The position numbers and the translations under genes are program-made. From Emticicia sp. 21SJ11W-3 (GTDB lineage Bacteria; Bacteroidota; Bacteroidia; Cytophagales; Spirosomataceae), in NCBI RefSeq assembly GCF_024138715.1, contig NZ_CP092074.1, positions 4,402,001 to 4,466,000 on the forward strand: DNA of 64,000 nucleotides. Direction: 5' to 3'. The notes under the pieces were generated by a model. That model did not search any database and was not told the DNA's origin. It saw only the letters and a list, made by a program, of their open reading frames with translations. Positions 44,224 to 46,719 of the stretch are shown here, piece after piece; position 1 is the first letter of the stretch; each line of letters opens with the position of its first letter.

Positions 44224-44364
44224 ATACTATTTAGTGCCATTTACTTGTTGGCCTAACTAACAGGTTTTTACAGATAAACCGCCCAATAGAATAAACCGGA
44301 TAAACATGGTTTTTTCATTAAAAATCTTGAACTTTGACGCTTTAAATCAGAATATACATCGATA

Positions 44365-45258
44365 ATGACTCAATTTTTTGACCAGCTTATTTGCCCGAAA
44401 ACCAGAACCAGACTTGTTGTGTCGGCCGACGGCAAAACCCTTCATAATACCTCTCAGGAAGAACCTATCTCTTATGATATAAACAACATTGTTGATCTGG
44501 TTTATCCGAAAGAACTCTTCGAACAAGACCGCAAAGAACAGGTAGCCTATAACGATGCCCATTTGCGTTACGACCGTGGGGTTTCCTGGGTTTTTCAATC
44601 TTTACATGCCAATGAAGCCGCAACTCGAAAACTGATGATTGGCTTGTTGAAATTAAAACCCGGCATGAAAGTTCTGGAAGTAGGCGCTGGTACAGGAAAA
44701 GATTCAGCCTTTATTATTGATAAAATCACTCCGGGTGGTCATGCCGTTTTATCTGACCTTTCTCCTGCCATGCTTGGTCATGCCAAAGAAAAGTTTGCTG
44801 ATAAAAAAGATGTTAAAATTGACTATTTCATCGTTAACGGTTCTTATCTGCCGTTTGAAGACAATTTCTTTGATGCCGTTTTTCATTTTGGTGGCATCAA
44901 TACCTTTGCCGAAAGAGCCAAGGCATTTGAAGAGTTTAACCGTGTAGTTAAAATTGGTGGCAGAGTAGTTGTAGGTGACGAAAGCGTAGGTGCCTGGCTG
45001 AGAGACCAGAAAACCTATCAGATTCTGATGGATGCTAACCCCATGTTTGCCGACCAGGTGCCATTGCAGGACTTGCCTAAAAATGTAAAAGATGTAAAAC
45101 TGCAATGGATTTTTGGTAATGGGTATTACGTTTTGGAGTTCAAAAAAACCAAAAAAGCCCCAACCGTAAACGTAAACCTACAGATACCGGGTAAAGATAT
45201 TAAAGATAACTGGAGAATAAGGGCTGAGAGGAATAGGAAGAACACCCCCCGCCCCTAA
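44365..45258 (+). CDS. SAM methyltransferase with Trm112-like N-terminus
   Basis: 297 residues. Residues 6-50 (LICPKTRTRLVVSADGKTL) match the Trm112p-like zinc-type domain, though only one of the usual cysteines is present. SAM motif I is VLEVGAGTGKDSAFI (about 104-118) and DAVFHFGGINTFAERAKAFEEFNRVVKIGGRV completes a Methyltransf_11 fold. Its last eight or so residues (RKNTPRP) are encoded by the left inverted repeat of the DUF559 element that begins at 45245, so the native C-terminus has been replaced. It probably modifies a sugar or lipid in the glycan cluster. Confidence 0.82.
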   Translation: MTQFFDQLICPKTRTRLVVSADGKTLHNTSQEEPISYDINNIVDLVYPKELFEQDRKEQVAYNDAHLRYDRGVSWVFQSLHANEAATRKLMIGLLKLKPGMKVLEVGAGTGKDSAFIIDKITPGGHAVLSDLSPAMLGHAKEKFADKKDVKIDYFIVNGSYLPFEDNFFDAVFHFGGINTFAERAKAFEEFNRVVKIGGRVVVGDESVGAWLRDQKTYQILMDANPMFADQVPLQDLPKNVKDVKLQWIFGNGYYVLEFKKTKKAPTVNVNLQIPGKDIKDNWRIRAERNRKNTPRP

Positions 45259-45691
45259 AGGGGAGTTAAAACAAAAAGCCATCGATATCATTGCACATGA
45301 AAGAGAATATGTTTTATGGGGCAAGCAGCATTAGCTTTGAAAGGGCAGCAAAGTTAAGAGCGAATTCCACACCAATGGAGGAGCATCTGTGGCATTATCT
45401 GTCAAAAAGCCAATTAGGTTTGCGTTTCAAAAGACAGCACCCAATTGGCAATTACATAGCCGATTTTTATTGCCATTCTGTCAAGTTGGTTACTGAAATT
45501 GATGGTAGTATTCATAAAACTACTGAACAGAAGTTAATAGATAAAGAAAAGGACGAATTCTATCAATCGGTTGGGATTACCGTGCTAAGAGTTACCAATA
45601 AAGTTTTAAGTAATTCCACCGAAGAAATATTAAATAAAATCAAAGGAATGCTAAATACTAAAGATTCGAACACCCCTTTAGGGGCGGGGGG
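45245..45691 (+). mobile_element. 447-bp DUF559 element with 19-bp perfect terminal inverted repeats
   Basis: CCCCCCGCCCCTAAAGGGG (45245-45263) and its exact reverse complement CCCCTTTAGGGGCGGGGGG (45673-45691) bound a single DUF559-domain reading frame that starts at 45297. Each repeat holds an inner 12-base near-palindrome (CCCCTAAAGGGG). No target-site duplication is evident. The element lies between the methyltransferase and propeller genes of a cluster otherwise free of nucleases. Its G-run repeats are unlike the composition of the neighbouring DNA. Confidence 0.75.
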
Positions 45692-46628
45692 GCATATCTG
45701 GCAAAAAAAAGGAGTAATATACAAACCTGACGGAACATTGGCTCATAGCCGTTCGCATGCGCAGGTGCCGTATGCTTATAAACATAATGACTTTTTAAGA
45801 GTTTACTTTTCATCAAGAGATGATCACGGCCAATCACGCCCGACATTTATTGATGTGGATTATGATGACCCTACAAAGATTCTCTATGTGCACGACACTT
45901 TCGTTCTTGATTTAGGCGGGCCGGGCGAATATGACGAAACCGGAGCCATGCCTTCATGGTTTGTGCCGCAATCCAATGGTGATATCTGGTTATATTATAC
46001 CGGCTGGAACCGTACCCATAATTCATACCGGCTGTCAATGGGTTTGTCGGTTAGTACTGATGGTGGCATAACGTTCAAGAAAATGTTCCGCGGGCCTATT
46101 ATGGACCGCTCTATTCATAACCCTATCTGGGCAGCGCAGCCATCGGTAATGTATGTAAATGGCCGCTGGATGATGTGGTACATTTCTGGTCAGAAGTGCG
46201 AGTATATTCACGGGTATCCCGAACCCTATTACGACTGCCGCGTGGCGGTTTCAGATGATGGCATTAAATGGGAACCAACCGGCGATGTGGCCTTGCCTTT
46301 TGATGATTTTCTGCATGCCGTTGGCCGCCCGAGTGTATTTTTTGAAGATGGTATTTTTAAAATGTACTACTCTTATCGCCACACCCGCGATTATCGCACA
46401 GACCGTAACCAAGGCTATCGCTTAGGCTATGCTGAGTCAAAAGACGGCTTTCAATGGGACCGCAAAGATAATCTGGTAGGTATTCATAAATCTGAAAACC
46501 CTGCTGATTTTGACTACCAGATGATAGATTACGCATATTGCTACGAACACAATAACAAAAAATATCTGTTATATAACGGCAACGGTTTCGGAGCCGCAGG
46601 TTTTGGCTATGCTGTTCGGGAAAAATAA
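45297..46628 (+). CDS. DUF559 nuclease-like domain fused in frame to a glycoside-hydrolase-like propeller protein
   Basis: 443 residues from the ATG at 45297 (a TTG six bases earlier is less likely). Residues 1-120 are DUF559, a Vsr-like PD-(D/E)xK fold: FKRQHPIGNYIADFYCHSVK with D56, E67-x-D69 in VTEIDGSIH, and VLRVTN. Residues 124-132 (SNTPLGAGG) are the translated right inverted repeat. From residue 134 (IWQKKGVIYKPDG) the sequence is a GH43/GH32-like five-bladed propeller protein (RVYFSSRDDHGQSRPTFIDV, WMMWYISGQ, MYYSYRHTRDYRTDRNQGYRLGYAESKDG), of the kind found in glycan loci. I infer that the propeller gene lost its own start and now reads as a fusion. Whether the fused product functions is unknown. 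Confidence 0.8.
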   Translation: MKENMFYGASSISFERAAKLRANSTPMEEHLWHYLSKSQLGLRFKRQHPIGNYIADFYCHSVKLVTEIDGSIHKTTEQKLIDKEKDEFYQSVGITVLRVTNKVLSNSTEEILNKIKGMLNTKDSNTPLGAGGHIWQKKGVIYKPDGTLAHSRSHAQVPYAYKHNDFLRVYFSSRDDHGQSRPTFIDVDYDDPTKILYVHDTFVLDLGGPGEYDETGAMPSWFVPQSNGDIWLYYTGWNRTHNSYRLSMGLSVSTDGGITFKKMFRGPIMDRSIHNPIWAAQPSVMYVNGRWMMWYISGQKCEYIHGYPEPYYDCRVAVSDDGIKWEPTGDVALPFDDFLHAVGRPSVFFEDGIFKMYYSYRHTRDYRTDRNQGYRLGYAESKDGFQWDRKDNLVGIHKSENPADFDYQMIDYAYCYEHNNKKYLLYNGNGFGAAGFGYAVREK

Positions 46629-46719
46629 TGATTTTCTGATGAGCATCATTTTTGGAGCTTACCCCAGCATCTAATTTTGCCCTGTTGTTTTATTTTTGAT
46701 GTTTAAAGCGAAGGTTACC

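Follow-up and report, generated by a model that had tools for sequence, protein, structure and literature searches.

A DUF559 nuclease gene between inverted palindromes in Emticicia: a candidate member of a widespread kind of element that would seed bacterial genomes with repeats

The window analysed here is a stretch of 64,000 nucleotides from the genome of Emticicia sp. 21SJ11W-3 (contig NZ_CP092074.1, positions 4,402,001 to 4,466,000; genome G000 below), in which a DUF559 nuclease gene and two inverted repeats lie between a methyltransferase gene and the gene of a propeller protein. The features of this locus, in window positions, are the following.

44365 to 45258, plus strand: upstream methyltransferase, C-terminus ...NRKNTPRP, with its final residues encoded by the left repeat
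45245 to 45691: repeat-bounded unit of 447 bp
45245 to 45267: left terminal inverted repeat, with its 19 exact bp at 45245-45263; contains CCCCTAAAGGGG and gives the upstream methyltransferase frame its TAA stop
45297 to 45653, plus strand: DUF559 nuclease, ATG at 45297, domain at 45339-45653; D, E, D and H columns invariant in aligned relatives
45297 to 46628, plus strand: continuous frame of DUF559, right repeat and propeller, a translational fusion also present in G094
45669 to 45691: right terminal inverted repeat, with its 19 exact bp at 45673-45691; read in frame as NTPLGAGG
45693 to 46628, plus strand: propeller protein with weak similarity to beta-1,2-mannobiose phosphorylase; in 9 of 11 genomes of the genus the orthologue is not fused to DUF559

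The first-pass annotation of this DNA had described a 447-bp DUF559 element with perfect 19-bp terminal inverted repeats, and this is confirmed by the exact copies of CCCCTTTAGGGGCGGGGGG at 45245-45263 (minus strand) and 45673-45691 (plus strand) as well as by a match to Pfam PF04480 (E 4.4e-27, 94.5 bits for a cut-off of 20.6) over residues 17-121 of the open reading frame 45291-46628. The inverted match of the ends extends to 23 nt at 96% (45245-45267 against 45669-45691), and both ends contain, as had been noticed, a near-palindrome, CCCCTTTAGGGG, with 5-bp arms. Beyond these two ends, no copy of CCCCTTTAGGGGCGGGGGG at up to 3 mismatches occurs in the 64-kb window, for which 100 dinucleotide shuffles give an expectation of 0.03 matches, none of them (0/100) having two. 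Since no other Pfam family is found in the DUF559 frame at E 0.001, the element has neither a transposase in general nor a Y1 transposase (PF01797) in particular, in agreement with the single nuclease-like frame first reported. By eye, the window shows no GTAG tag beside the two repeats, no direct repeat shared by the bases outside 45245 and 45691 that would represent a target-site duplication, and no target consensus. Regarding the neighbouring genes, the methyltransferases of the relatives read end with NRK followed by one to three residues, and the DUF559 frame, lacking a stop at its end, runs through the right repeat into the propeller. No ATG was seen between the right repeat and the conserved propeller start, and in the window the propeller seems to have been made dependent on the DUF559 start codon.

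The Vsr-like residues D56, E67 and D69, initially reported as retained, are correct when counted from the ATG at 45297 and correspond to D49, E60 and D62 of alignments A1 and A3, in which they are invariant in 28/28 and 39/39 rows, window included (A1 being without L104 and L105, which contain stop codons); a histidine column is also invariant in the aligned rows. The AlphaFold2 model of DUF559 (mean pLDDT 88) has as its nearest solved structure 3hrl, the Neisseria DUF559 protein NGO0050, whose own match to the DUF559 profile has E 5.4e-30. It is followed, mitochondrial ribosome chains of Toxoplasma aside, by the homing endonuclease I-Bth0305I (3r3p; profile E 1.1e-4, Foldseek TM 0.59-0.74 with E 1.3e-3 and 2.1e-3) and more weakly by the Vsr structures 1cw0 and 1vsr (Foldseek E 0.02-0.03), so that DUF559 is predicted to be similar to the Vsr/EDxHD fold. 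Judged by substitution rates, the domain is under purifying selection, with dS 1.21 and dN 0.089 between G000 and G094 and pN below pS in 8/8 DUF559 pairs. The same frame (45297-45653) also has a weak PADLOC profile match to the defence protein DpdF (E 9e-8).

It had been proposed to search the whole genome for the 19-bp repeat, alone and in inverted pairs, and the repeat proves to be dispersed: the 5.18-Mb single-contig genome contains it 22 times when up to 3 mismatches are allowed, the two ends of the element included, against 0 copies of the reversed 19-mer taken as control. Among neighbouring copies at most 150 bp apart, 5/7 are oriented like the element ends, the remaining 2 lying on the same strand, and this orientation recurs in 11/11 such neighbours of G027 and in 12/13 of the places listed for G091. 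These close inverted pairs appear REPIN-like, and the palindromes flanking the nuclease gene are part of a repeat family that is scattered over the genome in inverted doublets, a feature by which RAYT systems, or REPtrons, are recognised. Two of the repeat pairs fold as single-strand DNA beyond shuffles (z -4.1 and -5.3), and a single end forms no better fold than its shuffled versions (z about -0.5). Repeat pairs also recur beyond the window, at G000:C1:4163486-4186915 (L003, L007, L011-L016, L022-L024) between apparent tandem permease-type genes, and part of the copy number may hence reflect gene duplication rather than spread. The second PF04480 match of this genome (L002) covers profile positions 68-106 only and looks like a different Vsr-type gene.

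In the family of the window's organism, PF04480 was found in 69 of the 150 genomes drawn, and the domain could be located at 84 of 85 loci, window included, the exception (L108) having no profile match. Four of these 84 loci lack full flanks, leaving 80 for the search of an inverted repeat that spans the DUF559 domain within 350 bp with a score of at least 28, matches below about 38 bits having been left out. Such a repeat is present at 63/80 family loci (the window's included), compared with 1/158 control stretches of the same geometry and 0/73 shifted controls. A sample of several phyla, made of the best 80 of at least 580 matches in named genomes and consisting mostly of Bacteroidota, with Cyanobacteria, Chloroflexi, Patescibacteria, Planctomycetes and Proteobacteria, gives 54/80 loci against 6/299 controls, and 49 of the best-scoring matches in the class of Methylomonas (the class of G152) give 42/49 against 3/88. 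No inverted repeat at this score was found at 17/80, 26/80 and 7/49 loci of the three samples, respectively. As had been anticipated, DUF559 genes are therefore found between inverted pairs more often than expected, far above same-geometry stretches in all three samples, and the association of DUF559 with repeats, as sequence comparison presents it, is strong. The suggestion that DUF559 genes of Bacteroidota often carry similar flanks likewise holds, and it can be widened, such flanks being present in other phyla too. When left ends of family loci are matched with right ends of other loci, 235/2000 combinations reach the score threshold, which implies a partly shared consensus. At one family locus, L066 (G112:C3:135663-136643), a full DUF559 match precedes two tandem partial matches, each covering profile positions 38-106.

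The repeat at the flank of the nuclease can be compared with the repeats that abound in the same genome. Two types, CCTCTCC..GGAGAGG and CCCCTWWAGGGG, were counted in the 150 family genomes. The first has a median of 11 other copies in the 19 genomes where it flanks DUF559 (at least 5 in 18/19), 1 in the 44 DUF559 genomes with other flanks and 0 in the 87 genomes without located DUF559, of which 6 have a weak or unlocated match; for CCCCTWWAGGGG, the corresponding medians are 26 (n=7), 0 (n=56) and 0 (n=87). The P values of these comparisons (6.5e-8 and 1.3e-11), like that of 9.7e-18 below, overstate independence because the species are related. In the class of Methylomonas, at least 5 copies of the tested repeat type are present in 30/51 genomes with full-length DUF559, against 11/152 without and 3/26 with a weak match (P 9.7e-18). 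The repeats lying at the DUF559 loci are part of these counts (on average 1.2 and no more than 6 for each locus examined); deducting 4 copies per DUF559 match leaves 21/51 against 11/152 (p 1e-7). Nine of these 51 DUF559 genomes have zero copies of the tested type. Conversely, several genomes without located DUF559 are rich in repeats (G091 368, G100 181, G071 179, G055 70, G027 45 and G110 36 copies; further, G245 89, G199 60 and G197 41). Three of them belong to genus g17 (G091, G071 and G100; loci L231, L234 and L240 in G091), with 179-368 copies of CCCCTWWAGGGG and no DUF559 match. In G091, the copies among the places listed are mostly tight inverted pairs, and the likeness of its pairs (L231) to the ends of the Spirosoma terrae DUF559 unit (L134) suggests that G091 lost its nuclease; repeats may outlive the nuclease. 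As far as these counts go, the repeat type at the flank is, with exceptions, a predictor of the repeat abundant in that genome.

Regarding the methyltransferase-propeller junction, for which a comparison with relatives had been advised, the propeller gene is present in 11/11 genomes of the genus and the full element is missing in 9/11, being found in G000 and G094 only (2/11). The junction of G128 has the repeat pair without nuclease (1/11), that of G074 the right repeat only, in frame (1/11), and those of G085 and G110 a C-rich, remnant-like stretch; the junction repeat is absent in G049, G062, G102 and G123, and G027 has a different upstream sequence with no repeat there. Because dS between G000 and G094 is alike for DUF559 (1.21) and for the methyltransferase (1.36), and because G094 is nearer to G074 than to G000, the element at this junction seems to be old and vertically inherited since the split of G000 and G094, and G074 has probably lost it, leaving one repeat in frame. 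A recent insertion at the window's site is unsupported, the dS of the element and of the neighbouring gene being alike. What the junctions display is hence polymorphism, short of proof of recent movement.

The in-frame residence of the window's element is not an isolated case. An open frame reaches 300 nt or more both upstream and downstream of the domain at 28/84 family, 14/80 multi-phylum and 7/49 Methylomonas-class loci, and on the downstream side only, as in the N-terminal fusion of the window, at 3/84, 12/80 and 0/49 loci. Hosts identified by Pfam include IleRS-type tRNA synthetase, LeuRS, MetH, UvrA, MnmE, methylmalonyl-CoA mutase, CoA transferase, aminotransferase, HMGL-like protein, DXR and a HisF/HisA-type histidine-biosynthesis protein, together with HsdR, HsdM, HsdS, MmeI-type and Eco57I-type proteins and N4/N6 methylases; host names beyond the Pfam-scanned proteins are a reading of the sequence. 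Inside the family, in-frame hosts are mostly housekeeping genes. Outside it, 18/21 hosts open on both sides look, by Pfam or by reading of the sequence, like restriction-modification or DNA methylase genes (L131, L146, L152, L156, L159, L160, L162, L167, L176, L179, L186, L199, L287, L312, L315, L318, L319 and L320).

MnmE, where insertions occupy a loop that we place between what we take to be the NKxD and SAK motifs, was read in 30 of the 150 genomes. The loop contains, in frame, repeat-nuclease-repeat in 5/30, a repeat pair alone in 3/30 (one of them degenerate) and short scars in at least 2/30, the rest being without clear repeat; a sixth full copy, in MnmE of G094, comes from the DUF559 loci. 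The scars in L205 (G111) and L203 (G095) are short, in frame and like repeat pairs minus their interior. Introns and inteins were considered as an explanation for such insertions and rejected: no Hint domain is among the Pfam matches of 27 fusion proteins, no intron was found in 15 loci (14 of them gene fusions), and no Rfam match in window positions 44300-46700. A Flavo-1 RNA (Rfam RF01705) lies at L120:857-948, near a Pedobacter fusion of DUF559 to a HisF-type protein.

We consider it probable that the window holds a minimal repeat-plus-nuclease element, in which a single-domain, Vsr-like PD-(D/E)xK nuclease of the DUF559 family lies between inverted copies of the genome's own REP-type palindrome and would spread these repeats. 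What is given by comparing sequences is the flanks, the REPIN-like pairs, the match between flank and genome, the presence/absence polymorphism and the residence in frame. Regarding the mechanism, DUF559 would recognise its cognate repeat, probably as a hairpin or cruciform, and would nick or cut DNA at or near it; host repair could then copy the repeat pair into the break, with or without the nuclease gene. Such a spread would be functionally like RAYT/REPIN dissemination and like homing, and units that keep the frame would be tolerated inside proteins and at gene starts. The initial suggestion of a RAYT-like, repeat-propagating family with an unrelated PD-(D/E)xK enzyme is supported, at the level of candidate assignment, by the dispersal, the flanks and the junctions without the full element. 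In REPIN-RAYT systems, as outlined in the sources cited, short palindromes form dispersed inverted pairs beside a gene of matching repeat type (PMC3116915; PMC8266576). Similarly, dispersed inverted palindrome pairs adjoin the DUF559 gene, whose repeat type matches that of the genome. DUF559 is, however, a Vsr-like PD-(D/E)xK nuclease whereas RAYT is an HUH tyrosine transposase; in contrast to RAYT REPs, DUF559 repeats are CCCC-type and the window's ends have no GTAG tag; and unlike RAYT, the DUF559 units often lie, nuclease included, in frame inside conserved genes. Unlike an insertion sequence or a MITE, the window element has no transposase and, by eye, no direct repeat outside its ends.

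A strict homing endonuclease would cut a fixed target in each host gene and be copied by homologous repair, the repeats being secondary. Several observations speak for it, among them the grouping of DUF559 genes by host gene: on a tree of the domain (160/164 rows kept, 98 columns, bootstrap unsettled, host labels partly by eye), 14 host groups need 16 changes, for a possible minimum of 13 and a shuffled mean of 40.8, 0/200 shuffles being as low. IleRS, MnmE, CoA transferase, UvrA, AddB-like, mutase and propeller hosts with at least two members in the family form single groups, as does HisF, and in IleRS, MnmE and other hosts several genera have the insertion in the same region; MetH, HsdR, HsdM and other restriction-type hosts form no single group on the tree. 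Vertical descent with loss is, however, also expected to yield host-gene clades. The divergence of DUF559 conflicts with that of the host in 3/9 same-site pairs, the other 6/9 being similar or saturated. In UvrA (L029/L033), pS is 0.36 for the host and 0.11 for DUF559, some stretches of uvrA itself being no less similar than the nuclease; in CoA transferase (L028/L039, across genera), the values are 0.77 and 0.55, and in MetH (L027/L030), 0.48 and 0.80. Between the two MetH loci, identity drops from about 0.9 in the host gene to about 0.6 over the latter half of DUF559, which looks as though a portion of the MetH-borne nuclease had been replaced.

The structural relative I-Bth0305I is itself an EDxHD homing endonuclease, and DUF559 shares with it a related fold and profile as well as the residence inside conserved genes. 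According to the portion of the homing literature cited, association with self-splicing frees homing genes to enter conserved sequences (PMC3943268). Unlike I-Bth0305I, the DUF559 insert is translated and palindrome-bounded, with no intron or intein found, and the window's protein has no long DNA-binding arm. Moreover, most DUF559 loci lie outside long frames and yet have the same kind of repeats, nuclease-free repeat pairs occupy the same MnmE loop, and the repeat type follows the genome. Homing in this strict sense is, in our view, unlikely.

The repeats could also be spread by HUH (Y1) transposases of RAYT type, with the DUF559 genes as passengers. RAYT genes are, in the sources cited, the known partners of REPs (PMC3116915; PMC8266576), and Y1_Tnp is present in 130/150 family genomes, with 3 matches in G000. 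This presence is, however, too general to explain the match of the DUF559 flank type, and neither tested repeat type lies within 400 bp of any of 20 Y1_Tnp loci (0/20, sampled from many more matches), compared with 28/84 DUF559 loci. The three Y1_Tnp loci sampled in G091 are without CCCC-type repeat flanks, and several Y1_Tnp loci are flanked by other palindromes; those at L243, L246 and L250, for example GTCGCGTTAGCGAC, are apparently their own REPs. We therefore regard the passenger explanation as very unlikely.

A conventional role of the DUF559 nuclease in repair, restriction or defence, with the inverted repeats as terminators or regulatory hairpins, appears still more improbable. In its favour, the DUF559 protein VsrA of Caulobacter is proposed in Vsr-like repair in the part of the study cited (PMC12907096), the window nuclease has the weak PADLOC similarity to DpdF, and one terminator-like site lies in the left repeat on the minus strand. 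Terminators inside coding genes should be harmful, and the same units lie in frame inside such genes, which disfavours this explanation; nearby control stretches are mostly without inverted pairs, and the number of terminator-like sites at the element (1) is no higher than in shuffles (mean 1.5), on which ground terminators were rejected. In the sections of that study cited, VsrA contains DUF559 and underlies an SOS response in cells lacking a methyltransferase, so that at least one member of the DUF559 family probably acts on DNA in vivo; unlike the window element, VsrA is described there without palindromes or inverted repeats (PMC12907096). Finally, selection of the insertion as a domain fusion with a function in the host proteins, to which purifying selection on DUF559 and the recurrence of the same host gene in several genera could point, is scarcely credible, as the hosts are unrelated (tRNA synthetases, MetH, UvrA, MnmE, HisF-type protein, restriction subunits), presence is patchy and repeat-only versions of the same insertion exist.

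The stem of CGTC-type REPs is TTCCCGC..GCGGGAA. It was found near 0/49 Methylomonas-class DUF559 loci, and the shorter stem TTCCCG..CGGGAA at 0/10 DUF559 loci; DUF559 as the partner of CGTC REPs is thus rejected for these samples. CGTC and GTAG REPs, including the RPEs of Rickettsia, are nevertheless described, in the portion of the work cited, as in-frame palindromes in repair and tRNA-related genes (PMC3733652), where DUF559 palindromes also lie in frame. The Rickettsia-type intragenic inserts encode short peptides, with no enzyme mentioned in that portion (PMC3733652), whereas the DUF559 units carry a nuclease. Judged by titles and abstract openings within an open-access scope, repeats are the subject of none of the 14 papers that name DUF559 or the one that names PF04480, nor was there any open-access literature joining REP terms with Vsr or "endonuclease domain-containing protein".

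We place the element outside both the RAYT systems and the homing introns and inteins, with a working principle that resembles that of each. It seems to belong to a type of selfish element that is widespread, has apparently gone undescribed and would seed bacterial genomes with repeats. We lean, with confidence little better than even, toward the broader proposal that DUF559 represents a new class of mobile elements, namely REP-bounded, non-splicing homing units that insert in frame into conserved genes, are translated within the host protein and shed non-autonomous repeats in many phyla, which would make up a third superfamily of REPs after GTAG and CGTC. If the reading as a repeat-plus-nuclease element is true, two abundant palindrome types of the window's family, one of them also of the Methylomonas class, would gain a candidate enzyme, and a role would be assigned to DUF559, a large family of unknown function. 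It would also mean that the spread of REPs arose with an enzyme unrelated to RAYTs as well, and that nuclease domains under purifying selection ride inside conserved proteins with no sign of splicing. The dissemination of REPs would then be testable with an enzyme of 119 residues and a substrate of 19-23 nt.
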